64,000 bases of DNA. Source: Spirochaetales bacterium (GTDB lineage Bacteria; Spirochaetota; Spirochaetia; Sphaerochaetales; Sphaerochaetaceae). Positions within the stretch are counted from its first letter, which is position 1; each line of letters starts with the position of its first letter. Of the stretch, positions 27,643 to 41,730 are shown one piece after another. The DNA is taken from assembly GCA_018433865.1 (NCBI GenBank), contig JAHDQJ010000006.1, positions 62,001 to 126,000 of the forward strand, in the 5' to 3' direction. Both the position numbers and the translations under genes were made by a program. The notes beneath the pieces were generated by a model. It did not search any database. It had not been told where the DNA came from and saw nothing but the letters and a program-made list of their open reading frames with translations.

Positions 27643-28503
27643 ATGGATCACAAGTACGTACGCTATGTTGCATACAACGCTCCCGAGGCAGCTTTGTTGC
27701 AAGAGGTGGAACAGTTCGTATCGGAAATGGAACGGAATCTCGGAATCGCCAGTGGCGTATCGATCGACCATTCGTTGAACAGCATGCCGGACATGGAGAG
27801 TCTCTTCATTGCATGGTCGAACAGGGAAATCGCAGGCGTCGCCACGATATTCAACTCGACTGCGGACCTCGGAGAGATTGCCATCTGCGTCCGCCCGACA
27901 TTCACGAGACACGGGATCGGAAGTGCCCTGTTGCATCTCGGTCTGCGAACACTGCAGGAACATGGAGTCAAGAGACGGGTGCTGATCTGTGACCGCAAGT
28001 CATCAAGCGGGACACACTTTGTCCTCCGCCATGCCCGGGGGGAGCTGTTCAGGGAGTACACGATGGAACGATCGGCACAGGTCGCGCTTCCCGAAGGATC
28101 CCGGTTGTCGATCCGGGATGCCCGCACGACGGATGTCGACGAGATGACACGCATCTGTGCCGCCGCATACGGGGACAGTCCCACAGAGGCCGGTGCGTTC
28201 ATCGAGACCAGCATGATCAGCGTGAACCGGACCGGACATGTAGGTCTCTTGGACGGCCGCCTGATAGCAATCTGTTTCATTTCCGAGCATGAAGAGTACC
28301 GATCGGTGAATACGGTGGCAGTCGATCCCCCCTTCCAGGGTCGAGGCCATGGGACGGAATTCCTCGCACAGGTCCTCAGACAGCTTCCCCAAGACGGCAA
28401 GCCGATCAGGCTGGATGTGGATGGAAAGAATTTGCATGCGATCGCGGTATACCGGCGATTGGGATTCCTCGGAATCTCCGAAATCGGGTATCATGAGGTA
28501 TGA
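27643..28503 (+). CDS. Tandem GNAT-domain acetyltransferase
   Basis: 286 residues with two GNAT-like halves. The first (about 45-115) ends in RPTFTRHGIGSALLHLGLRTL, a good acetyl-CoA loop (RxxGIG). The second (about 150-280) has VAVDPPFQGRGHGTEFLAQVL (QGRGHG) and the NLHAIAVYRRLGF C-terminal strand. The overall form recalls mycothiol synthase-like double GNATs, but the substrate is unknown. GATGGAG is only a few nt before the ATG. It runs into the deacetylase gene without a gap. Confidence 0.8.
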   Translation: MDHKYVRYVAYNAPEAALLQEVEQFVSEMERNLGIASGVSIDHSLNSMPDMESLFIAWSNREIAGVATIFNSTADLGEIAICVRPTFTRHGIGSALLHLGLRTLQEHGVKRRVLICDRKSSSGTHFVLRHARGELFREYTMERSAQVALPEGSRLSIRDARTTDVDEMTRICAAAYGDSPTEAGAFIETSMISVNRTGHVGLLDGRLIAICFISEHEEYRSVNTVAVDPPFQGRGHGTEFLAQVLRQLPQDGKPIRLDVDGKNLHAIAVYRRLGFLGISEIGYHEV

Positions 28504-28523
28504 GGAATACGGTGGAGCGCATC

Positions 28524-29435
28524 ATGGCCAAACGAATGACATTTCTTGTGATCGGACTCTTATGGTGCATCATGATCGCCCCAGCAGCTGCATCCGTTGC
28601 CGTTCCCGAGGAGATCTCGGCACCACTCACGGGGTTGCAGGCCCCTCCCGTCCGGTATTGGAAGAGCGCCTCCGGCGGGACTCTCCCGAGGACAGTCGAC
28701 CCGAACACGCTCTCCTCAGCAGACGTCCCGCGGCGTAAGGATCCCAAGATCGTCCCGGTGATGTACCACAATATCGTCTTCGGCCGTACCGGGAATGTCT
28801 ATAACAGGGACATCTACAACTTTGAGCACGACATGGCCTTCCTCAAGCGTAACTACGCGATCATCGATTTCCAGGATCTTGTGGATATCCGCGAAGGGAG
28901 GAAGATGTTGGAAACCGATGGGACCATCATCACATTCGATGATGGCGACTTGTCGGTCTATGCGATCGTCTATCCCCTGCTGAAGGAACTCGACATGAAG
29001 GCGACGTTCTTCATCGTGCCCAACTTCATTGGCGAGGTCGGCTACATGAGTTGGGATCAAGTCCGAGAGATGGATCAATATCGGAATCCTGAGGGCCGAA
29101 AGCTATTCTCTTTCGGCTCCCACTCCTTGACACACCGCGCACTGGGAGAATTGCCCTCCGCGACAATCCTGTTCGAGATGACCGAATCGAAGCGGATCCT
29201 GGAATCGCAGATCGATGGATCCGTCATCACGATAGCCTTGCCGTTCGGTAGCGGAGCGGGGATGCAGTCGGTCATCGATGCAGCCCGGGAGGCGGGGTAC
29301 CTGACCATCAGGACCTCAGTTCCGGGAGCCATCAGTATAACGGGGATCGACTTGATGTCGGTCAAGGCTTTCAATGTAGACAACTACAGCAATGATGTCT
29401 TCGTGCAGCATATGTTGCGATTGACAGGGAGGTAG
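28524..29435 (+). CDS. Secreted polysaccharide deacetylase (NodB domain)
   Basis: 303 residues: signal peptide (1-24, ending PAAAS), a linker, then a NodB domain (about 130-290). Catalytic features are ITFDDGD (Asp pair) and the metal-binding SHSLTH (His-x3-His), with YHN in the strand before the domain. Carbohydrate esterase family 4 members remove acetyl groups from peptidoglycan or from beta-1,6-GlcNAc-type polymers. GGTGGAG lies 6 nt before this ATG; an ATG at 28500 overlaps the previous stop but has no site. Next to a GH16-like enzyme and opposite a polysaccharide synthase. Confidence 0.87.
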   Translation: MAKRMTFLVIGLLWCIMIAPAAASVAVPEEISAPLTGLQAPPVRYWKSASGGTLPRTVDPNTLSSADVPRRKDPKIVPVMYHNIVFGRTGNVYNRDIYNFEHDMAFLKRNYAIIDFQDLVDIREGRKMLETDGTIITFDDGDLSVYAIVYPLLKELDMKATFFIVPNFIGEVGYMSWDQVREMDQYRNPEGRKLFSFGSHSLTHRALGELPSATILFEMTESKRILESQIDGSVITIALPFGSGAGMQSVIDAAREAGYLTIRTSVPGAISITGIDLMSVKAFNVDNYSNDVFVQHMLRLTGR

Positions 29436-29438
29436 GAT

Positions 29439-30197
29439 ATGTTCCGTCTTTGCCGCATGATCCTGCTGGCAGGGCAAATCCTGATCGTGAGCAACCTCTT
29501 CGCAGCGGTCCCGCTTCCCTCAGTTACGAGCAGACCCCGCGAGCTGGATTTCGGAGGGATGACCTGGCGCATCAAATCCTCTGCATCCGCTGTGGCTCCC
29601 GGTCCGAATCCCTACAGCGCAAGCGTGGAATCGGTGTGGGTCGATCAATGGGGACTGCATCTGACCATACGCAAGATCGCAGATGTGTGGCATGCCACGG
29701 AGGTCTTCACCAAGGAGCGGGTAGGATACGGAACCTATACGTTCTCTGTGGAAAGCGATGTGAACTCATATGACGAGGCAGTCGTGGCGGGATTCTTCAC
29801 GTGGGACACAGCCCCGCAAGAGTTCCACCGGGAGATCGATATCGAATTCGCTGCGTGGGGCCAACCGGGGGGACCCAAGTTCCAGTATGTGGTGCAACCC
29901 TACGACGATCCCGATAGGATCGAGGTGTTCGATCCGCGGCTTCAAGGAAACAGCACGACACACCGCATCATCTGGACCCCACAGAAGCTGGAATTTCTCA
30001 GCTATCATGGGCTGGTGGATCCTGACGACCCTGCTGCACAGGACAACCTGATGCATCGATGGGTATTCGGTGGGAAGCCTCCCACTGAGGGACGGGTCCG
30101 CTTCAGGATGAATCTGTGGCTCTTCCAAGGGGAAGCCCCGAAGGATGCGGTCTCCCTGGTGGTCACTTCGTTCTCGTTCCTTCCGCTGGAGAAGTGA
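29439..30197 (+). CDS. Secreted GH16-like glycoside hydrolase
   Basis: 252 residues with a signal peptide (1-22). The core is a jelly-roll pattern of strands, and REIDIEFAAWG places E132, D134 and E136 in the family 16 ExDxE motif, with nucleophile, assistant and acid/base all present. Family members cut beta-glucans, agar or similar polymers; the substrate here is unknown. The strong site GGGAGGTAGGAT precedes the ATG three nt after the deacetylase stop. Its last 35 bp overlap the 3' end of the opposing glycosyltransferase gene. Confidence 0.8.
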   Translation: MFRLCRMILLAGQILIVSNLFAAVPLPSVTSRPRELDFGGMTWRIKSSASAVAPGPNPYSASVESVWVDQWGLHLTIRKIADVWHATEVFTKERVGYGTYTFSVESDVNSYDEAVVAGFFTWDTAPQEFHREIDIEFAAWGQPGGPKFQYVVQPYDDPDRIEVFDPRLQGNSTTHRIIWTPQKLEFLSYHGLVDPDDPAAQDNLMHRWVFGGKPPTEGRVRFRMNLWLFQGEAPKDAVSLVVTSFSFLPLEK

Positions 30198-33030
30198 CGC
30201 TCTTCTTCTCAAAACCTTTCCTGACCTGGGCTCCCCAGCCCCTATTCTTTCGCATCGCGCTAAAAAATCCTCCGACCCGCCAGAGGCTGATGTACTGCCG
30301 GATACCGAAGTTCTCCATGATTGCCATGTTGAGGAGCCTGAGCACATCATCCGAATCATACATTTCATGATCCAGCTCATTGATCAGGACCGATGAGACG
30401 CTGACCATGATTCCCATGAGTATCGTGGAGGTGAACAGGAGCAATGCGATCGGCAAGTTCAAGAGCCCGACCGCAGCTGAGACGAAGACCAGCAACAACC
30501 CTTGGGCCTCGATGAACGGACCGACGAGCTCGAACATGAAATAGTAGAGCATCCCGACGAGACCGAGCCTGCCGTACCGGGGGTTGCCGATCATCGTACT
30601 GTGGAACAGGAGGATATCGACCAATCCGCGATGCCAGCGGTCCCGTTGTCTGTGCAACACCTTCCACGATTCGGGAACCTCGGTCCAGCAATTCGCATTG
30701 AACGCATATTTCACCCGATACGGGCGGCCTGCCTCCCGCATGAAACGGGAGAGCCGTACCACCAATTCCATGTCCTCTCCCACAGTATCCTTGCGGTACT
30801 TCCCGCTCTTGGTCAGATACCCTCCGGTCTGGATGGTCCGTTCACGGTTGAATACACCGAACGCTCCGCTGATGATCAGCAGGAGGTTCAGCTGGGCCCA
30901 GCCGACCCTTCCTGACATGAATGCCTGCATATACTCCAGCGATTGCAACCGGGCGAGGAAATTCGTCGGGAGGGCGACAGTGTCGAGCGACCCGAGTTCG
31001 ACGGTACATCCGTTGACGGGACAGATGTTCCCTCCGGTGGCAATGGTCTCTTCGGAGGAATCGATCATGCCGGAGACTGCCCGTAGCAAGGCTTCAGGCT
31101 CCAAGAGCGAATCAGCATCTATGCCACAGAAGAATTCCTTGCTCGCGACATTCAATCCCATGTTCAGCGAGTCGGCCTTTCCCCCGTTCACCTTGTCGAC
31201 GACAACGAGGTTGGGAATGTTCTTGTTGGTATAGATGCCACGTAACGGTCGGGTCCTGAGCCGCTTGCGAACGATCCTGTCCCGCTTCTCCAGATTGAAA
31301 TACTGGATCAGTGTATTGAGGGTCTCATCCTTCGAGCCATCGTTCACCACGATGAGCTCGAACTCGGGATACCGTTGGTTGAGCAGGCTGTTCACGCTCT
31401 CGATGATATTGCCTGCCTCGTTGTAGGCCGGGGCGATGATGGATACGGAGGGAAGCAATTGGTCGCTATGCAACAGGGAGGCGTCCTTGCATTCCCACAA
31501 CAGCTTCTGCTGTCTCGCCCCCCACACTGAGATGAGCAGGATCAGCAGATAGATGCAATTGATGGTGACCGAATAGAACACCAACAGATAATTGAACCGG
31601 ACGATGTAGAGGCGGCCTATCTCGAGCCATGTGAGGTTCACCAGGTTCGTGAACTCGCTGGCAAGGATGACAAGCGGAAAGAGCAGGAGTATCAGGATGA
31701 GGGTAAGGGCGAGCCGAAGGCGTTGCGGAGCCTCCTTGTGCGGTGGAGGAGCATCGTTTTTCTTCGTCGCGAGACGGATTCGGAACTCCTTGATGAGCCG
31801 CTTGTCCAAATATTGGATGATCTGTGCCTTCAGCAAGGGATTCTTGCTGACAAGCGGTCTCAATGCAGCCACGATCTCCCGTTCGATCTCATTGTCCCGG
31901 TTGCGGTTGAGAAAGAAGATGATGCCGCTGGTCTGTTGTGAACGGACCAGCTGCCTGAGCAGCTCGACGACCTGGTCATGCAGGGCTCCGGTGATTTGCA
32001 GCAGGTAGTATTCGATCCGACGGTTCAGGACCTTCGCCAGAAGTTCTTTCTGTCGTGTGAATTTCGTCTGGTAGAAACGTGAGATGATATCGTTGAGGAT
32101 ACCGATATCCTGGTAGGTCATCTCCGCGATACTCTGTACGATATGTTCATGCAGCGATGTCCTGTTCGTGTAGGAGAGGATCGAAGGGATATATCTTTTG
32201 TCCTTCATGGCACCGAAGGCATACACCACCGTGGTGAGCACGTCCCGCTTGGTGCTGGAGAGAAACGGCTCAATGATCAGTTCCTCAGGAAAGTGCTTGA
32301 GCAGGGCCTTGAGCGCGCATCTTCGGATTCGCGTCCGGTTCGATTGTGCCTGGGTCGTCAGGTATCGCCGCAGTTGTTCGGCAGGATGCTGGCAGGCATA
32401 ACTGCAGATGATGAATTGCATGTACGATCGAGTGTTTCCGAGTCTGCGCAACAGATAGGGGAGGAGTACGGGGCCGAAACTGAAGAGGACGGCTCGCAAG
32501 CGCCCTGCCATCCATGGGGAGGCTCTCCTGATGTGGCTGATGAGAGGAATGATGGCACGTTTGTCCTTATGGACCGCCAAGGATTGTCCGATGTAGAGCG
32601 CCACGACCGAGTCCTTCTCCTGTTTCAACGCTTCCAACAGTGCATCGGTGACCGTTTCGCTGGCAAGATAGCGGAGGTTTGCAGCGGCTTCGATACGTTT
32701 CAGTTTCCTGCGGGACTTGAGTTGCTGTGTGTAGCGAACCGGCAAATAGCTTCCCAGCAGCAGGTGCAGGATATGTTCCCGCTTCTCGGAGGGGAGGAGG
32801 ACCGATTCGCTCAACCGTTTGAAGAGTGTGAACAGCTGGTCAGGTTCAAACCGCTCATCATCGATTTCCCCGTTGGTGACCTGTTGTTCAAGCAGCTGTT
32901 GCCGTTCCGATTCCTTTCTCTTGCGGTATCTTCGGTAGCGCTTGAGGAAGAACGTTGCGAGCAACAATACGATATCGATGGTGAGGATCGCGAGCGTCAG
33001 GATGATGGCAACATTTGGTCCCATGCTCAT
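30163..33030 (-). CDS. HEAT-repeat family 2 glycosyltransferase (membrane synthase)
   Basis: 955 residues. Order: an N-terminal membrane helix; about 400 residues of HEAT-like helical pairs (30-430); two membrane helices (about 445-520); a GT2 catalytic domain (about 535-800) with VVNDGSKDET, the DADS metal motif, GAFGVFN, GEDMEL and the QRDRW motif of processive synthases; then four or so membrane helices and a basic tail. This is the BcsA/PgaC/hyaluronan-synthase pattern for making and exporting a polysaccharide, but without a PilZ domain. The HEAT part may hold a partner. The ATG at 33030 overlaps the regulator stop (ATGA); 33024 is equally possible and better placed for AGGGG. Confidence 0.88.
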   Translation of the reverse strand: MSMGPNVAIILTLAILTIDIVLLLATFFLKRYRRYRKRKESERQQLLEQQVTNGEIDDERFEPDQLFTLFKRLSESVLLPSEKREHILHLLLGSYLPVRYTQQLKSRRKLKRIEAAANLRYLASETVTDALLEALKQEKDSVVALYIGQSLAVHKDKRAIIPLISHIRRASPWMAGRLRAVLFSFGPVLLPYLLRRLGNTRSYMQFIICSYACQHPAEQLRRYLTTQAQSNRTRIRRCALKALLKHFPEELIIEPFLSSTKRDVLTTVVYAFGAMKDKRYIPSILSYTNRTSLHEHIVQSIAEMTYQDIGILNDIISRFYQTKFTRQKELLAKVLNRRIEYYLLQITGALHDQVVELLRQLVRSQQTSGIIFFLNRNRDNEIEREIVAALRPLVSKNPLLKAQIIQYLDKRLIKEFRIRLATKKNDAPPPHKEAPQRLRLALTLILILLLFPLVILASEFTNLVNLTWLEIGRLYIVRFNYLLVFYSVTINCIYLLILLISVWGARQQKLLWECKDASLLHSDQLLPSVSIIAPAYNEAGNIIESVNSLLNQRYPEFELIVVNDGSKDETLNTLIQYFNLEKRDRIVRKRLRTRPLRGIYTNKNIPNLVVVDKVNGGKADSLNMGLNVASKEFFCGIDADSLLEPEALLRAVSGMIDSSEETIATGGNICPVNGCTVELGSLDTVALPTNFLARLQSLEYMQAFMSGRVGWAQLNLLLIISGAFGVFNRERTIQTGGYLTKSGKYRKDTVGEDMELVVRLSRFMREAGRPYRVKYAFNANCWTEVPESWKVLHRQRDRWHRGLVDILLFHSTMIGNPRYGRLGLVGMLYYFMFELVGPFIEAQGLLLVFVSAAVGLLNLPIALLLFTSTILMGIMVSVSSVLINELDHEMYDSDDVLRLLNMAIMENFGIRQYISLWRVGGFFSAMRKNRGWGAQVRKGFEKKSVTSPAEGTRTK

Positions 33031-35057
33031 TTCCCCTGGATTTGCAGCCGGTTGGCAATCAGGTTGACCACTCCCAGCAACTCGACCAGCATGACAGGAC
33101 GGAAGAAGAAGTGGGTGATCTTGACTTCGATCGCTCTTCCTACGGTGCTTTCGTTCTTGCTGTATGACATCAGAAGGTAGGGAATCTTGCGAGCTTCCGG
33201 CTTTGCCAGCAACTCCTTCCGCAAGGTGATGCCGTTCACTTTCGGTACCATCAGCTCACAGATGATGATATCGGGGACCTCCTCCTCGATCGCCCGTCTT
33301 CCTTCGAGGCCGTTGTCTTTCACCACTACCCGGTACCGTTCCTGTTCGAGCGCGCGCTGTATCAGGTTCCTTCCGAGTCCGGGTTCGTCGATCAGCAGTA
33401 CGGTGAACACCGTGTTGCTCCCTCCCGCAGCGACGGATTCGTGGACGAGGATGCCTCCTCCCCGCTTTTGCGCCAGTCTCAACCGGTATTGAGCCGTCTG
33501 GATGGTGACGGCTGCCATCTGCTCGACATCGCCGAGGATCGTCGTGGGCAACTCCGTGGTGTGGAACAATCCGACGGAGATGGAAATCGGAACGATGAAC
33601 GCCTCCGAATCGGCAATGTAATTGAGCAAGCCGTTCAGTCTGCGGATGATCTCCGGTTTGTCGTGGTGGGAACAATAGATCCCGAAGGTCCCGCCTGCAA
33701 GGCGGAATGCCTGACTTGAGGACTCGATCTTCTGCTTGACGATCGTCGCGAACTTCTTCATCGTCGCATCACCTTCCGCGCTTCCGTGATCCATGTTGAT
33801 GTTGGAAAGGTTGTCGATGCTGATCATGAAGAACGAGAGATGCATGCCGTCATGAGCGACCATCTCCATCACTTGCTTCGAGAACACCCTATGGTAGTCT
33901 TGGTTGAACAACCCTGTGACCGGATCGCGGAAGAGATCTTCCTCCATCCGGAACAATCGCTGCTCAAGACTCGACTTCTGGTTCTCAAGCTCCAACAGTC
34001 GAGCCTCCTTCGAAGAGCGTTCCTGCATGGCGTCGAAGACTATCGTCGAGAAGATGGAAGGAAGCGGAATCGAGTACTCTTTGCCAACCAGCTCGACCAC
34101 CGGAGCGACTACCGTGATCCATCCCATGCCTTTCCGGGCATGGATGAGTTCGAAAAAGGCATTCCATCGTTCGCTTTCAGGCAAGTTGCATGCCTTGATG
34201 GCATGTGTCTTCGCATCGTAGACAAACGGCGATTTCGCGAAGACCTTGCGAACTTCCGCTGCGCCGAATATGGTGAGGTACCGCTTGATGATCCGGTTGC
34301 ACAGATCGATATGTCCGTTCTCTCCAAGCAGCGACTTGTGAATGGGGTTGATGAATATTCCGCACTGCAGGTTTTCAAGGATCCCGATATATTCGGGGAT
34401 GCGATCATTGATGATCGATCCGTGTTGCGGACAGATGAGACTGATGTCGTATTGATGAAGCTGCGCCATGACCGGCCGAAGTATGTCATGTGAAGGCATG
34501 TAGGCTTCATGGAAGGTTTTCATCCCCTCCTCGTAGTCTTCGGCAGCATACAGCTCTGAACGTTGGCTGAATGCACCGAAAAGATCTCCTGAGATGAGTG
34601 CCTTCGGTTGTTCCAGGTAGCTCATGATCGAACCGGGAAAGTGAAGATAGGGGGCGAACAGGAATTTGATCTGATTCCCGTCTTTCATGGCGTAGCGGTA
34701 TTCATGATGGTCGACCAGGTAGAAGGGACTCGCTACACCATAATACCTGATGATGGAGGAAGCCCGTTCGTGGCAACAGATGTTCCCGTTGAATCCTGCC
34801 TGTTCGAACAATGGGAGCGAGGCACAGAGATCGGGATCCTGATGGCTGCAGACTATCGCTTCGATCGAGTCGATCGGGATCAATGAGACGACTTTTGCAT
34901 GGACTTCTGCGAAATCCAATACCGAACCCGGATCGAAGAGCACCGCGCTGCCTTCTCCGAGGTAGAGGTAGGGATTGCAGCGCAAATTATGCTGCAGCGA
35001 TTCGGATCCGACCCACCACAGGTTCTCTGCAATCCGGATCGGCTTCGATTCTTCCAT
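33027..35057 (-). CDS. ODP sensor - degenerate GGDEF - degenerate receiver fusion
   Basis: 676 residues. The N-terminus (1-250) is a metallo-beta-lactamase-like ODP domain as in flavodiiron proteins, with ligands H72, D74, D76, H139, D158 and H212; the usual His after D76 is Leu77. ODP proteins bind a diiron site and can sense oxygen. A coiled coil (about 350-375) leads to a GGDEF-type domain (380-530) whose signature is AGGTF (454-458), so cyclase activity is unlikely. The C-terminal receiver (about 550-670) has Glu601 at the phospho-Asp position and Arg653 at the conserved Lys, so it should not be phosphorylated normally. It lies between the GH and synthase genes with a 3-nt gap and a 4-nt overlap, implying it regulates them. 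Confidence 0.85.
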   Translation of the reverse strand: MEESKPIRIAENLWWVGSESLQHNLRCNPYLYLGEGSAVLFDPGSVLDFAEVHAKVVSLIPIDSIEAIVCSHQDPDLCASLPLFEQAGFNGNICCHERASSIIRYYGVASPFYLVDHHEYRYAMKDGNQIKFLFAPYLHFPGSIMSYLEQPKALISGDLFGAFSQRSELYAAEDYEEGMKTFHEAYMPSHDILRPVMAQLHQYDISLICPQHGSIINDRIPEYIGILENLQCGIFINPIHKSLLGENGHIDLCNRIIKRYLTIFGAAEVRKVFAKSPFVYDAKTHAIKACNLPESERWNAFFELIHARKGMGWITVVAPVVELVGKEYSIPLPSIFSTIVFDAMQERSSKEARLLELENQKSSLEQRLFRMEEDLFRDPVTGLFNQDYHRVFSKQVMEMVAHDGMHLSFFMISIDNLSNINMDHGSAEGDATMKKFATIVKQKIESSSQAFRLAGGTFGIYCSHHDKPEIIRRLNGLLNYIADSEAFIVPISISVGLFHTTELPTTILGDVEQMAAVTIQTAQYRLRLAQKRGGGILVHESVAAGGSNTVFTVLLIDEPGLGRNLIQRALEQERYRVVVKDNGLEGRRAIEEEVPDIIICELMVPKVNGITLRKELLAKPEARKIPYLLMSYSKNESTVGRAIEVKITHFFFRPVMLVELLGVVNLIANRLQIQGK

Positions 35058-35060
35058 AGG

Positions 35061-38000
35061 TCATCTCTCCCTTTGTCCTTCCAAGTAGTCCCGGAGGATA
35101 TCATAGCTGGCTTTTTCCCGTTCGCGGTAGGTCGGTTGGTTCCATGTTGTCCATGGCAACAACAGCGCCTCACGCGTACCGAATTGTCCGAGAATCCGAT
35201 CGGTCTTATGCTGTACCAGGATGCCCGATACTGCGATCCCGTCGGTCTGGATCGTACCGATGACATCCCTTGCCGGATCGGTATGACGGATTTCCTTGTC
35301 GTAGAGGACCGTGCCTGAGGAAGGATCCGAGACATTGATCCGGGTCCAAGGAATCCGTACGGTCAGCGACTTGCCGTTCACTTCCCAGTGATTGGTCGAT
35401 CCCGTCTGCTCTCCATGCAGGAGACGACTCGATTCTTCATGGATCGCAGGTATCGGAGTTCCGTCAGCCAAGGCGCGAGCCTTGTTCGTCAGTTTTCTCA
35501 TGACGCGGAAGTCTCCCGTGCTCACAAGCGTATCGTAGGTACTGAATGCGTAATTCGTCCCGTCGGAGGGAGGAATCGCCAACAGTCGGGAACTCTCCGT
35601 TCCATCAAGCACGATCAGGTACTCCATTCCGCTTGGGGCTTGCACACCGAGCCGTGCATCGTAGAGGAGCTCTCCCTGATCCCGTGAAACGGTATCCAGT
35701 CCGATCAACAACCGTTCCTTCGTGAAATCCACGGGAGTCTCGAGCGTGATATCGAGGTGGAGGAAGGAAGCATCGATTCTCAACTCAACCGATCGGATCG
35801 CATGCTCGCCTTGTGCAACGACTGCCGCGCGAGCCGGTTTCACCGCCTCATAGGCCAACAGTCCATAATTCTGTTCGGGGTCGATCGCATTGTGCCAAAG
35901 AATGTGGCGATCATAGGGGATCATGTAGGGTTCGGTGGTCCAGGTTTTCTTGGCCCATTCATCCATCCACTCGAAGATGATGCCTCCGGCGTATCCCTCG
36001 CGGTGCATGGCTTCGAACATCCTGATGATGCCCTCTCCCTGGACGACCTCGGTCATCGACCCATGGTGGTAACCGTCGCCACTGGTGTGGGCATTTCCCA
36101 TGCCGGTGGCGAGGCCGAACTCCGCGACTACCGCCGGATACGCCCGGTGATGGCTCATGAACTGTTGCAGATAGCCTCCGTAGCGGAACCGGCCTTGCTC
36201 ATCGGAGTATGTATCGTAGAGGGGATCGTTGTTCATGAAATCGGGGTAGTTCGGGTAAATATGGTAAGCGCCGAAGAGACCTGACTTCAGGCGAGGCCCC
36301 GGCAAGAGGTTGTTGATGTCCACCGTGATCCGATCATTCGATTCGGATATCTTCAATCCCTGTTCGTTTCTTTCCGATGGGTGGTCGATCGGATCCAAGG
36401 TTGGCCAGTTCACGATTGCCACGGGGTGTTGCCACCCATAGGCCGACTCCTCATAAGCGACGACATAGTCGGTGCTGGCAGCGAGCCATGCTTCGGTAGG
36501 GGATGCTTCGCTGCACGCGATCAGATACTCGCCTGAGAAGCCATACCCCTCGTTCAGCAAATCGGTGGCCTCAACCTCGTGCGGCTCGAGCTCCCGGCCG
36601 ACCAAATACCCGATCACATAGGGGGATACATCGCTGGTGTAGGTTCCCCACGCCCTCCCTCGGCGCTCTGCGATCGAGGCGTTTCCATGGATCGCATCGA
36701 TGACATGCTCGATCTCCCGTTCGTATTGCTGTTGATAGTCGGCTGCGAGATAGTCGTTTCCGTGCGGTTCCTCCTCCGGCCATATCTCCTGCATGAGCCA
36801 GAGGAGTCTATCGGGATGCATCGTGTTGTACAAAAGGAACGCATCATAGAACTCGGGATCGAGAAGCGTGTAGATGCGCACCGTGTTCGCTCCCATCGTG
36901 CCGATCTTTTCCAGCCATCGGTAGTAGGTCGCCTTGTCCTTCGGGAAATCGGTGAACCACCTGCCAGGCATCGCGATGCCGAGGTTCACCCCATGGATGA
37001 ACAGATCCTTCCACTCATCCTCCTGCCAGATCTGGAGCATGTTCAGGTGGGTTCGTGCCACCATGCTCGTTCCATCCACCACGGTGTGGGAAGGTATGCT
37101 CCTGGCATGCGGGGATTGCTTCTTGGCACGCACCTCATCGGCGATCGCGCGTACGATCGGAAGGTAGGCGTGCCAGTGGAAATGCTGCTCGCTTTCCAGA
37201 GAATCGGGTGAGGCGCGCTTCATCAGGTCGGGCACTCCTGCGAGGAAGGAAAACTTCATCGGCAGTGGGCTGTATGCCCAGTTCCCTGCGAAATAGTAGG
37301 TGTGATGATACGCCACGCTTCCCCTGATGATGGCCGGGAAGGATGCGGGGATGCCGGATCGGTGCAATTTTTCCGATCCGCTTGCCGTCACATCGAGATC
37401 ATAACGGGCAAGGACTTCGGCCCCTGAAAGCGGTGTGACGATATCGAACATATGGGGATAATAGTGCGAACCTTCCAAGCCAAGCTGTTCGGTTCCCGCT
37501 TCGGTGAAGAAGAATCGGTTGGCACCAGGACCGAGGTCCTCTTCCATCGTCAGGACCACGATCTCCTCCGACGTATGGTAGAGTATGATCCCGCTCCCGC
37601 TGTAAGCCCAAGGCTTGCCGCTCTTGTGCTCATACATCGCGTAGACCCACGACGGAGCATCACCCGATCGGGAAAGTTCGCGCACATAGAGTCCCGCCCA
37701 TCCGGTCCACTGGGCACGGAACATCTCGTAGGCTTGTGTCTGGATATGATCGGAAGTCGGCGTGGCAAAGGTATTGTACTCGGCGATCACGGTGTTCGGT
37801 CCCTCACGATTCAGGAAAGAACGCAGTACATCGATATCCGATTGTGAGAGACCACCATGGATGAGATTGCGTTCCCCTTCAGCGAGGATCGTCGTGATGT
37901 CGTTCTCACGCTTGTACACCCCATAGGTGTCGGCGATGTAGATCAAGTCCACATCTGCAGGAAGCATGTCGAGCGTGGTGACCCGCTCTGCCTCATCCCT

Positions 38001-38285
38001 TTCGGGGTGGTACCCGCGATACTCCGTTTCCGATGCATACAGTTCGCCCGATTCATCCTGCATCTTGTAGTGGTGGAGTATCCATCCGAGGCCTCTGTGC
38101 TGTTTGGCCTCGGAGGTGGGTACGGTCTTGTCCAGTACGAGCACACGGACCTGGAGCGCAGGTCGTGCCAGCCAAAGGATCAGCGGACTGAGCACCCCAA
38201 GGATGATGAGGATCACCAGGAGCAGGGACAATCGGAACCGGGTTTTCCCGGGAACGGGTTTCTTTCGCCTTCGTTTGGCTGTCAT
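35061..38285 (-). CDS. Membrane-anchored clan GH-A glycoside hydrolase-like protein
   Basis: 1074 residues. A basic N-terminus and one membrane helix (about 18-40) anchor it; the rest faces outward. The middle (about 430-760) reads as a TIM barrel: FIHGVNLGIAMPGRW start, GANTVRIYTL strand, acid/base E565 in GYLVGRELEP and nucleophile E722 in AVVAEFGLATG. The 157-residue spacing fits clan GH-A (GH2/GH5-type). The N-terminal 400 residues are not recognised, and the C-terminal 230 look like beta-sandwich carbohydrate-binding modules. It may trim or release the polymer made by the adjacent synthase. A TATACT box ends 6 nt before the ATG with no Shine-Dalgarno. Confidence 0.75.
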   Translation of the reverse strand: MTAKRRRKKPVPGKTRFRLSLLLVILIILGVLSPLILWLARPALQVRVLVLDKTVPTSEAKQHRGLGWILHHYKMQDESGELYASETEYRGYHPERDEAERVTTLDMLPADVDLIYIADTYGVYKRENDITTILAEGERNLIHGGLSQSDIDVLRSFLNREGPNTVIAEYNTFATPTSDHIQTQAYEMFRAQWTGWAGLYVRELSRSGDAPSWVYAMYEHKSGKPWAYSGSGIILYHTSEEIVVLTMEEDLGPGANRFFFTEAGTEQLGLEGSHYYPHMFDIVTPLSGAEVLARYDLDVTASGSEKLHRSGIPASFPAIIRGSVAYHHTYYFAGNWAYSPLPMKFSFLAGVPDLMKRASPDSLESEQHFHWHAYLPIVRAIADEVRAKKQSPHARSIPSHTVVDGTSMVARTHLNMLQIWQEDEWKDLFIHGVNLGIAMPGRWFTDFPKDKATYYRWLEKIGTMGANTVRIYTLLDPEFYDAFLLYNTMHPDRLLWLMQEIWPEEEPHGNDYLAADYQQQYEREIEHVIDAIHGNASIAERRGRAWGTYTSDVSPYVIGYLVGRELEPHEVEATDLLNEGYGFSGEYLIACSEASPTEAWLAASTDYVVAYEESAYGWQHPVAIVNWPTLDPIDHPSERNEQGLKISESNDRITVDINNLLPGPRLKSGLFGAYHIYPNYPDFMNNDPLYDTYSDEQGRFRYGGYLQQFMSHHRAYPAVVAEFGLATGMGNAHTSGDGYHHGSMTEVVQGEGIIRMFEAMHREGYAGGIIFEWMDEWAKKTWTTEPYMIPYDRHILWHNAIDPEQNYGLLAYEAVKPARAAVVAQGEHAIRSVELRIDASFLHLDITLETPVDFTKERLLIGLDTVSRDQGELLYDARLGVQAPSGMEYLIVLDGTESSRLLAIPPSDGTNYAFSTYDTLVSTGDFRVMRKLTNKARALADGTPIPAIHEESSRLLHGEQTGSTNHWEVNGKSLTVRIPWTRINVSDPSSGTVLYDKEIRHTDPARDVIGTIQTDGIAVSGILVQHKTDRILGQFGTREALLLPWTTWNQPTYREREKASYDILRDYLEGQRER

Positions 38286-40704: not shown

Positions 40705-41730
40705 TCACAGGGAGTAGAGTTCCCTGTCGAGGAAAAGATTCACCAGATCCGGATCGAATTGGCTTCCGCTGCAGGACTTGATCTCCTCGACTGCGATCTC
40801 GGTGGGCAATGCAGGCCGATAGGCACGGTCGGTGGTCATCGCATCGAATGCATCAGCCAGCGATACGATGCGAACCTCGAGCGGAATCATCTCCCCGACG
40901 AGTCCGTCTGGATACCCTGATCCGTCCATCCTCTCGTGATGGTTGCGGATGATCGGACGATAAGCCTGGAACATCTCGATCGGAGCAACGATCCTCTCTC
41001 CCGATTCGGGATGACCCTTGATGATCTCCATCTCGCGATCCGTGAGGGGTGTCGTCTTGTTGAGGATGTCCTCCGGGATGCCGATCTTCCCGATATCGTG
41101 GAGCAACGAGCCCCCTTCGATGATCTGCAGCAGAGGTTCGGGGAGGTCCAGAGCCTTTCCCATGGCGATTGAGATCGAACGGACCCTGCTGCAGTGTCCC
41201 TTGGTGTAGGCATCCTTTTGCTCGATCGTCTCCGAGAAGGCCTCGAGTGTCGCGCGAGTGGCATGGTGCAAGGTGGTCAACGCCTCCTGGAGTTCCCGTT
41301 CCAGCTTCTGCTGTTGGCTGAGGAAGGTATTCCGTCGGACCTCCTCATCCCACTTCCGATCCGATTTCTCGATCACCCGCTCTACGCAGGAGACCAGCGT
41401 TTCCCTCCGTACCGGCTTGGCAAGGTAATCGGCTGCTCCCATCCTGATCGCCTTCATCCCGGTGTCGAGATCATTGAACGCGGTGAGCATCACGATCGGT
41501 ATGCGCGGATGGGTACGCTGGACAATCTCCAGTACCTCGAAGCCCGAGAGGCCGGGCATCTTGATGTCCAAGAGGATCAGATCCACCGAATCGGCTTCGG
41601 ATGCAAGGAAATTGCGAAGTTCCTCTCCGTCTTGGCAGGAGGAGACATGGTATCCCTCCTTGCGCAGCATGATCTGCAGTACCTTGCGGATTGCCGGATC
41701 ATCGTCCGTCGTCACGATATGTCTGGTCAT
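40705..41730 (-). CDS. Response regulator with HD-GYP output domain
   Basis: 341 residues. The receiver (1-120) is intact: acidic TTDDD, phospho-Asp in LILLDIKMPG (about 55) and the AKPV lysine (about 107). A coiled linker leads to an HD-GYP domain (about 150-335) with LLHDIGKIGIPE and the GYP-type motif DGSGYPDG. HD-GYP enzymes hydrolyse cyclic di-GMP or related dinucleotides. Its ATG overlaps the stop of the membrane methyltransferase gene by one base, and the histidine kinase is divergent from that gene, so the kinase is a likely partner. Confidence 0.92.
   Translation of the reverse strand: MTRHIVTTDDDPAIRKVLQIMLRKEGYHVSSCQDGEELRNFLASEADSVDLILLDIKMPGLSGFEVLEIVQRTHPRIPIVMLTAFNDLDTGMKAIRMGAADYLAKPVRRETLVSCVERVIEKSDRKWDEEVRRNTFLSQQQKLERELQEALTTLHHATRATLEAFSETIEQKDAYTKGHCSRVRSISIAMGKALDLPEPLLQIIEGGSLLHDIGKIGIPEDILNKTTPLTDREMEIIKGHPESGERIVAPIEMFQAYRPIIRNHHERMDGSGYPDGLVGEMIPLEVRIVSLADAFDAMTTDRAYRPALPTEIAVEEIKSCSGSQFDPDLVNLFLDRELYSL

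Follow-up and report, generated by a model that had tools for sequence, protein, structure and literature searches.

The window analysed here, a 64,000-nucleotide stretch of a Spirochaetales genome [GenBank assembly GCA_018433865.1, contig JAHDQJ010000006.1, positions 62,001 to 126,000], carries a minus-strand operon of three genes, P0006, P0005 and P0004. These predict, respectively, a membrane-anchored protein of glycoside hydrolase (GH) clan GH-A, a regulator made up of an ODP domain and degenerate GGDEF and receiver (REC) domains, and a glycosyltransferase family 2 (GT2) synthase with HEAT repeats. The source genome is 2.9 Mb and 99.9% complete, and belongs to the Sphaerochaetaceae by nearest relatives. 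The operon combines parts of known kinds in a new way, and it is real, conserved and more than an oddity of a single genome. The reading we favour, with slightly better than even confidence, is that a cytosolic oxygen/iron sensor controls the activity of an exopolysaccharide synthase by direct contact between the two proteins.

P0006 (1074 aa; 35061–38285; identified by open reading frame (ORF), AlphaFold model and fold match) is separated by 3 bp from P0005 (676 aa; 33027–35057; ORF, Pfam and alignments), which in turn overlaps P0004 (955 aa; 30163–33030; Pfam and model) by a 4-bp ATGA. Two plus-strand genes face the operon. P0003 (252 aa; 29439–30197; Pfam score and ExDxE motif) predicts a secreted GH16-like enzyme and overlaps P0004 by 35 nt at the 3′ ends, and P0002 (311 aa; 28500–29435; Pfam, NCBIfam and motifs) predicts a NodB-type polysaccharide deacetylase resembling PgaB/IcaB. 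A first-pass annotation, made from the sequence alone, had described the same tight three-gene operon facing a deacetylase and a GH16-like gene, and all of its ORFs were recovered in place. The domains that it had named (ODP, GGDEF, receiver, HEAT, GT2 and deacetylase) are confirmed by Pfam, with the GH16-like match just under the cut-off.

Further loci were collected with a peptide-pattern scan using P0006, which gave 69 loci, followed by tblastn, gene calling (ORFs by length) and local profiles. Genes for ODP-GGDEF-REC, fused HEAT-GT2 and GH-A proteins are found together in 31 loci, which belong to Spirochaetota, Bacillota and Chloroflexota and include Sphaerochaetaceae and other spirochaetes, Acetobacterium, Fusibacter, Flexilinea and other Chloroflexi, and Thermoclostridium and other Clostridia. 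Co-conservation of the operon, which the first-pass annotation had proposed to look for in other spirochaetes, therefore holds in 31 further loci and reaches beyond that group. In Sphaerochaetaceae the GH-A gene comes first, followed by regulator and synthase; in Clostridia and Chloroflexi it comes last, after regulator and synthase. Three loci are irregular, L032 being cut by a contig end, L067 having a split HEAT-GT2 gene and L066 lacking the ODP domain.

The phyletic pattern was determined in 81 related genomes, with thresholds of E<1e-40 for the regulator (counted whether complete or broken by a contig end) and E<1e-60 for HEAT-GT2. Regulator and HEAT-GT2 are present in exactly the same 13 genomes (Fisher p 2.7e-15, without phylogenetic correction) and are neighbours in every case in which a single contig holds both. 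The GH-A gene is present in 9 of these 13 genomes and missing in 4, and in G052, G053 and G063 the regulator-synthase pair stands without it; G032 also has a GH-A gene, on a truncated contig. As the pair occurs in the same 13 genomes and is kept even where GH-A is missing, regulator and synthase form the tightest pair. In an even draw of Spirochaetota only 3 of 296 genomes carry the GH-A gene, and the GH-A probe matches 25 of the 291 genomes sampled from the class of Acetobacterium. The grouping of the three genes is far beyond chance.

A second arrangement is found in 30 GT2 genes that are accompanied by a separate HEAT protein and GH-A. A REC protein lies alongside in 10 of these and an ODP in none; where an ODP-REC gene adjoins the synthase and the locus is complete, HEAT is fused to GT2 in 31/31. 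In Ammoniphilus, Paenibacillus, Thermosyntropha and several Clostridia the order is REC protein, HEAT protein, GT2, GH-A, and HEAT thus appears as a subunit of its own adjoining REC and GT2. The separate HEAT proteins (349–390 aa) all start with a transmembrane (TM) helix followed by basic residues, like the N-terminus of P0004, and the HEAT and REC domains of the separate proteins are confirmed by Pfam. The conserved core is HEAT, GT2 and GH-A with exchangeable regulators, and the separate-HEAT loci indicate that the architecture in the window is this widespread core fused with a particular regulator.

A GT2 tree of 65 rows unites the ODP/fused-HEAT genes of Spirochaetota, Bacillota and Chloroflexota in a single clade (support 100/100) and places the Paenibacillus and Ammoniphilus genes with REC and separate HEAT next outside it (93/85). 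L032 was considered as a true exception in the tree and rejected, its gene being cut by the contig end. The single clade suggests that HEAT fusion and ODP acquisition were about one event, with subsequent spread as a unit. Distance-matrix correlations are 0.94 for GT2-regulator, 0.92 for regulator-HEAT, 0.87 for HEAT-GT2 and 0.76 for GH-A-HEAT, and the regulator-HEAT value exceeds that for HEAT-GT2 although HEAT and GT2 are one polypeptide; these values are suggestive only, because all of the genes share ancestry.

P0005 has no N-terminal anchor and is predicted to be cytosolic. Its Pfam matches are to ODP (PF19583, 2.4e-54; residues 25–213, 34419–34985), GGDEF (3.1e-14; residues 377–501, 33555–33929) and Response_reg (6e-14; residues 553–663, 33069–33401), the first being supported by alignment to solved ODPs and the other two by motif checks. 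The ODP domain fits the PF19583 family, which has a metallo-beta-lactamase fold and the ligand set H-x-D-x-D / H / D / H, and its ligands H72, D74, D76, H139, D158 and H212 align with those of the solved ODPs 6qnm and 6qrq. Of the 33 ODP regulators, P0005 among them, between 31 and 33 retain the metal ligand at any given position, and 31 retain all six. The GGDEF active site is intact in none of the 33; in P0005 it reads AGGTF, which does not conform to the diguanylate cyclase motif GG[DE]EF. The RxxD I-site for cyclic di-GMP (c-di-GMP) is likewise found in 0/33. In the P0005 receiver the phospho-Asp is replaced by Glu601 and the conserved Lys by Arg, and the phospho-Asp position is E in 30 of the 33 regulators, D in 2 and G in 1. 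The receiver Asp is kept in 8/8 of the aligned ODP-free regulators. The terms pseudo-GGDEF and pseudo-receiver used in the first-pass annotation are therefore appropriate.

From these alignments, the cyclase, c-di-GMP-binding and phosphorylation sites appear to have decayed in the ODP regulators while the metal site was held, and retention of the ligands across three phyla during that decay points to selection for metal binding. P0005 was accordingly rejected as an active diguanylate cyclase (dead GGDEF site), as an I-site c-di-GMP receptor (no RxxD) and as a regulator under conventional two-component control (phospho-Asp replaced). Control of P0004 through PilZ was also rejected, because the PilZ domain gave no hits in the whole genome (positive controls in 5/14), which extends to the genome the absence of PilZ reported for the window in the first-pass annotation. 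The known PilZ and I-site routes for c-di-GMP are thus excluded within the operon proteins, as judged from their motifs. Genome G069, which gave only ODP-domain hits in the phyletic comparison, encodes a free-standing ODP-GGDEF protein (L113:6609–8378, minus strand) in which GGEEF and RxxD are both intact. No synthase gene adjoins it, and it is a candidate oxygen-regulated diguanylate cyclase unlinked to a synthase.

P0004 matches GT2 (1e-20) and HEAT_2 (8.8e-5) in Pfam and consists of TM1, a cytosolic HEAT-repeat region (residues ~63–415; 31786–32844; Pfam and model), further TM helices, the GT2 catalytic domain (residues ~527–810; 30601–31452; Pfam, invariant motifs and model) and C-terminal TM helices. 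HEAT and GT2 should both be cytosolic, because TM1 is followed by the basic stretch KRYRRYRKRK and two TM helices lie between the HEAT and GT2 domains. The GT2 residues D564, D638/D640, E752-D753 and Q795-R796-x-R798-W799 are invariant in 31/31 HEAT-GT2 proteins, and the processive GT2 signature of D, DxD, ED and QxxRW with TM helices on both sides is present in P0004 according to its AlphaFold model (pLDDT 86, pTM 0.83). Foldseek lists hyaluronan synthases first for this model, with cellulose and chitin synthases also listed, and the best NCBIfam score is to PgaC/IcaA (TIGR03937), at 120 bits against an equivalog cut-off of 422 bits, so that assignment to the equivalog fails.

P0004 could alternatively be a non-processive transferase that produces a glycolipid or a glycan of the cell surface. 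In VIA, where the comparison tests mainly residues 441–930, the top match is the mannosyltransferase PcManGT (Z 26.7), near hyaluronan synthase (25.3) and BcsA (23.6). These scores are close together, and fold alone therefore cannot settle processivity. The invariant processive signature, the PgaC/IcaA and Foldseek rankings and the glycanase-like and deacetylase neighbours make this alternative unlikely, though it deserves some weight, and the QxxRW motif and gene neighbours favour a processive synthase. The first-pass annotation had made its proposal depend on P0004 not being a non-processive lipid-linked transferase; in the main, the invariant QRxRW and the predicted hyaluronan/cellulose-synthase-like membrane fold point away from such an enzyme.

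With no PilZ in the genome and with a dead GGDEF, no I-site and no phospho-Asp in P0005, protein contact becomes the leading reading. P0004 would be a GT2 synthase of the processive type that carries at its N-terminus a fused cytosolic HEAT scaffold, on which P0005 would dock. The ODP domain may bind a di-iron centre, such that O2 or the loss or oxidation of iron shifts its conformation or dimer state, thereby supplying an O2/iron signal in place of phosphorylation. The pseudo-GGDEF could serve for linkage or dimerisation, and the pseudo-receiver at the C-terminus, held in a locked state that needs no phosphorylation, would offer HEAT an output surface and thereby open or close the synthase. 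We infer the receiver as the output surface because it is the only regulator domain common to the ODP and ODP-free versions, and HEAT as its receptor because the HEAT gene sits between REC and GT2 and is fused to GT2 in the ODP clade. O2 binding and the direction of control are parts of the proposal in the same way as the contact itself; the most likely physiological sense is that O2 exposure of an anaerobe would trigger a protective polymer. P0006, anchored outside the cytosolic membrane, may remodel or cut the emerging chain, and in Sphaerochaetaceae the facing deacetylase and GH16 enzymes may modify the polymer further. A role in oxidative stress fits the presence, in several Sphaerochaetaceae, of an OsmC-type peroxide reductase gene next to the operon (the window, L014, L025 and L026).

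Several observations weigh against control of the synthase by oxygen through P0005. The ODP ligands are lost in L059, L108 and L109, yet the regulator persists, so that a non-sensing scaffold role is possible. Both L108 (1–3644) and L109 (5703–9562) have a PAS-SpoIIE-HATPase gene directly upstream of the regulator, with a 4-bp overlap in L109, in an apparent change of input within the same architecture. No REC gene accompanies the HEAT-GT2-GH-A core of Caldisericia and of many Clostridia. Because the ODP/fused-HEAT genes are a single clade, the association of ODP with fused HEAT counts as roughly one origin, passed on by descent and transfer. Two Fusibacter ODP regulators retain the receiver Asp, and in four congeneric loci a REC-HD-GYP gene directly precedes the P0006 homologue, P0008–P0010 intervening in the window.

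P0005 might act constitutively, as scaffold or chaperone for the synthase, with the ODP not an input and any sensing elsewhere; the three loci with lost ligands and L066, which has no ODP, speak for this. Conservation of the six ligands in 31–33 of 33 regulators across three phyla, while the GGDEF and REC sites decayed, makes this account improbable. Conventional two-component signalling, with P0005 as a phosphorylated response regulator, is suggested by the Fusibacter proteins and by L074, where a histidine kinase and a canonical REC precede HEAT-GT2; replacement of the phospho-Asp by Glu in 30/33, an acidic pair that is often reduced and the lack of a kinase gene in the operon leave it a very slim chance. 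The degenerate GGDEF might instead be a c-di-GMP receptor, as in PelD or Bacillus subtilis YdaK, with the ODP only modulating it. The operon logic resembles that of pel and ydaJKLMN, the ODP-free regulator of L031 has RxxD (RPMD) beside a dead GGDEF, and the 20 GGDEF domains over the cut-off in this genome, together with the HD-GYP gene adjoining the operon in congeners, indicate that the cell probably uses c-di-GMP, which could still bear on the operon. However, PelD and YdaK need the RxxD that all 33 ODP regulators lack, and we regard such a receptor as rather improbable.

More broadly, and with less confidence than in the contact reading for this operon, we tentatively propose a messenger-free mode of control in which HEAT-scaffolded GT2 synthases read exchangeable, operon-encoded receiver-type regulators that dock on HEAT. 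In one clade, found in three phyla of anaerobes, a phosphorylation-independent receiver would be driven by a fused di-iron O2 sensor, and O2 would directly gate exopolysaccharide synthesis.

P0006 has no sequence match in Pfam, NCBIfam or PDB. Its AlphaFold model (38 homologues; pLDDT 86.5, pTM 0.85) shows an N-terminal membrane anchor (residues 14–40), an alpha/beta N-domain (~41–330), a GH-A catalytic barrel (~435–800; 35886–36983; model and fold match) and one or more C-terminal beta domains, and TM topology predicts a location outside the cytosolic membrane. By fold only, the nearest structure to the barrel is a GH157 of Labilibaculum (VIA Z 29.6, 2.5 Å over 313 residues, 18% identity), with GH2 enzymes next (Z 26). 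GH157 is an endo-beta-1,3-glucanase family (PMC10229575), to which P0006 adds N- and C-terminal domains and the membrane anchor. E565, at the end of strand 4, and E722, at the end of strand 7, are invariant in 38 sequences and in the model occupy the places expected for the acid/base and nucleophile of clan GH-A. The clan GH-A hydrolase named in the first-pass annotation is consequently supported as to its barrel, and hydrolase activity is presumed. In L070, L074, L075, L077, L082 and L085 the P0006-type N-domain and barrel are two genes in reversed order (barrel first), and the N-domain therefore appears to be an independent unit.

P0002 has the features of a NodB deacetylase, with a Polysacc_deac_1 match (PF01522; 3.9e-17, 62.8 bits) and intact TFDDG and HxxxH motifs that are conserved in Sphaerochaetaceae. 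Its best curated relative is PgaB, at 50 bits against an equivalog cut-off of 322. The GH16 score of P0003 is 21.0 bits (cut-off 22), and its ExDxE is intact (REIDIEF). The deacetylase gene adjoins the operon only in Sphaerochaetaceae, with a remote deacetylase-like gene adjoining in L108. The GH16-like gene lies by the operon in Sphaerochaetaceae and near the core in L109, L059, L063, L045 and L058, always with ExDxE. Deacetylase and GH16 are thus a lineage-level addition, mainly in Sphaerochaetaceae and outside the minimal system. No outer-membrane exporter for the polymer was identified, and neither PgaD nor PgaA was seen in the operon. The first-pass annotation had described a complete system for making, sensing, trimming and deacetylating an exopolysaccharide; the word complete overstates the case, as deacetylase and GH16 are lineage-limited, GH-A is sometimes missing and no exporter was found.

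Each part has known counterparts. The Treponema denticola ODP, a cytosolic O2 sensor (PMC7666581), belongs to the same family as the P0005 domain (PDB 6qnm, 6qrq), with the same aligned motifs HQDPD, HxPG, SGD and PQHG, but works in chemotaxis beside a chemoreceptor, whereas the P0005 ODP is fused to a dead GGDEF and a dead receiver and paired with a synthase. Fusion of ODPs to signalling domains as such has been reported (PMC7319448), and a review of sensors in c-di-GMP proteins does not mention ODP (PMC8846402). In the Pel system the synthase is under post-translational control by PelD, a regulator whose GGDEF is also degenerate (PMC7112168); unlike the soluble P0005, which has no I-site, PelD is embedded in the membrane and acts as a receptor for c-di-GMP. 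CotH, VTC (polyphosphate polymerase) and DUF4956 accompany both Gram-positive pel loci (PMC7112168) and the HEAT-GT2-GH-A core of Clostridia, where VTC - DUF4956 - CotH - GH-A - HEAT - GT2 - GGDEF/EAL is a frequent cluster (L094–L107).

PgaC/IcaA and PgaB/IcaB are the best curated relatives of P0004 and P0002, both far below equivalog cut-offs, and P0004 adds HEAT. With hyaluronan synthase and BcsA, P0004 shares the membrane GT2 fold (Z 23–25) and QxxRW, but BcsA has a PilZ domain where P0004 has HEAT and a putative contact regulator. The B. subtilis ydaJKLMN operon likewise combines a GT2 synthase, an operon-encoded degenerate GGDEF regulator (YdaK) and carbohydrate-active partners; YdaK needs the I-site and c-di-GMP, whereas P0005 has an O2-sensor domain and a pseudo-receiver instead. 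The Listeria pss operon with PssE is a degenerate GGDEF receptor system like ydaJKLMN, and we know of no description of HEAT or the P0006-type GH-A family in either. No HEAT-GT2-REC or ODP-synthase system was found described in the open-access literature, most subscription papers being outside the scope.

Little is known, to our knowledge, about how strict anaerobes respond to O2 by building a protective matrix. If correct, the proposal would describe how O2 can act on polysaccharide synthesis without c-di-GMP in Acetobacterium (culturable acetogens), Fusibacter, Flexilinea and Sphaerochaeta, and would provide a regulatory principle, the docking of a receiver on a HEAT scaffold, for a widespread synthase core that is uncharacterised in the open literature searched. 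The loci offer a natural series: some receivers are phosphorylatable, others are phospho-dead and joined to an O2 sensor, and in a third group of regulators the sensor has itself decayed.

The remaining genes flank the set. P0001 (27643–28503, plus strand; ORF) predicts a GNAT acetyltransferase and lies outside it. Upstream of P0006, the adjoining genes are P0010 (38897–39421, plus), the OsmC-like peroxide reductase, and P0009 (39418–40635, minus), a predicted lipoprotein with a sub-threshold LCCL-domain match that is apparently not conserved with the operon. P0011 (341 aa; 40705–41730, minus) is a predicted REC-HD-GYP c-di-GMP phosphodiesterase with HDIGK and HHERMDGSGYP intact. P0012 (42329–45451, plus) predicts a 7TM-PAS histidine kinase with a C-terminal FeeM/GNAT-type acyltransferase domain; this fusion of a kinase with a possible acyl-signal synthase is unusual, and has counterparts at ~81% in L019 and L027.

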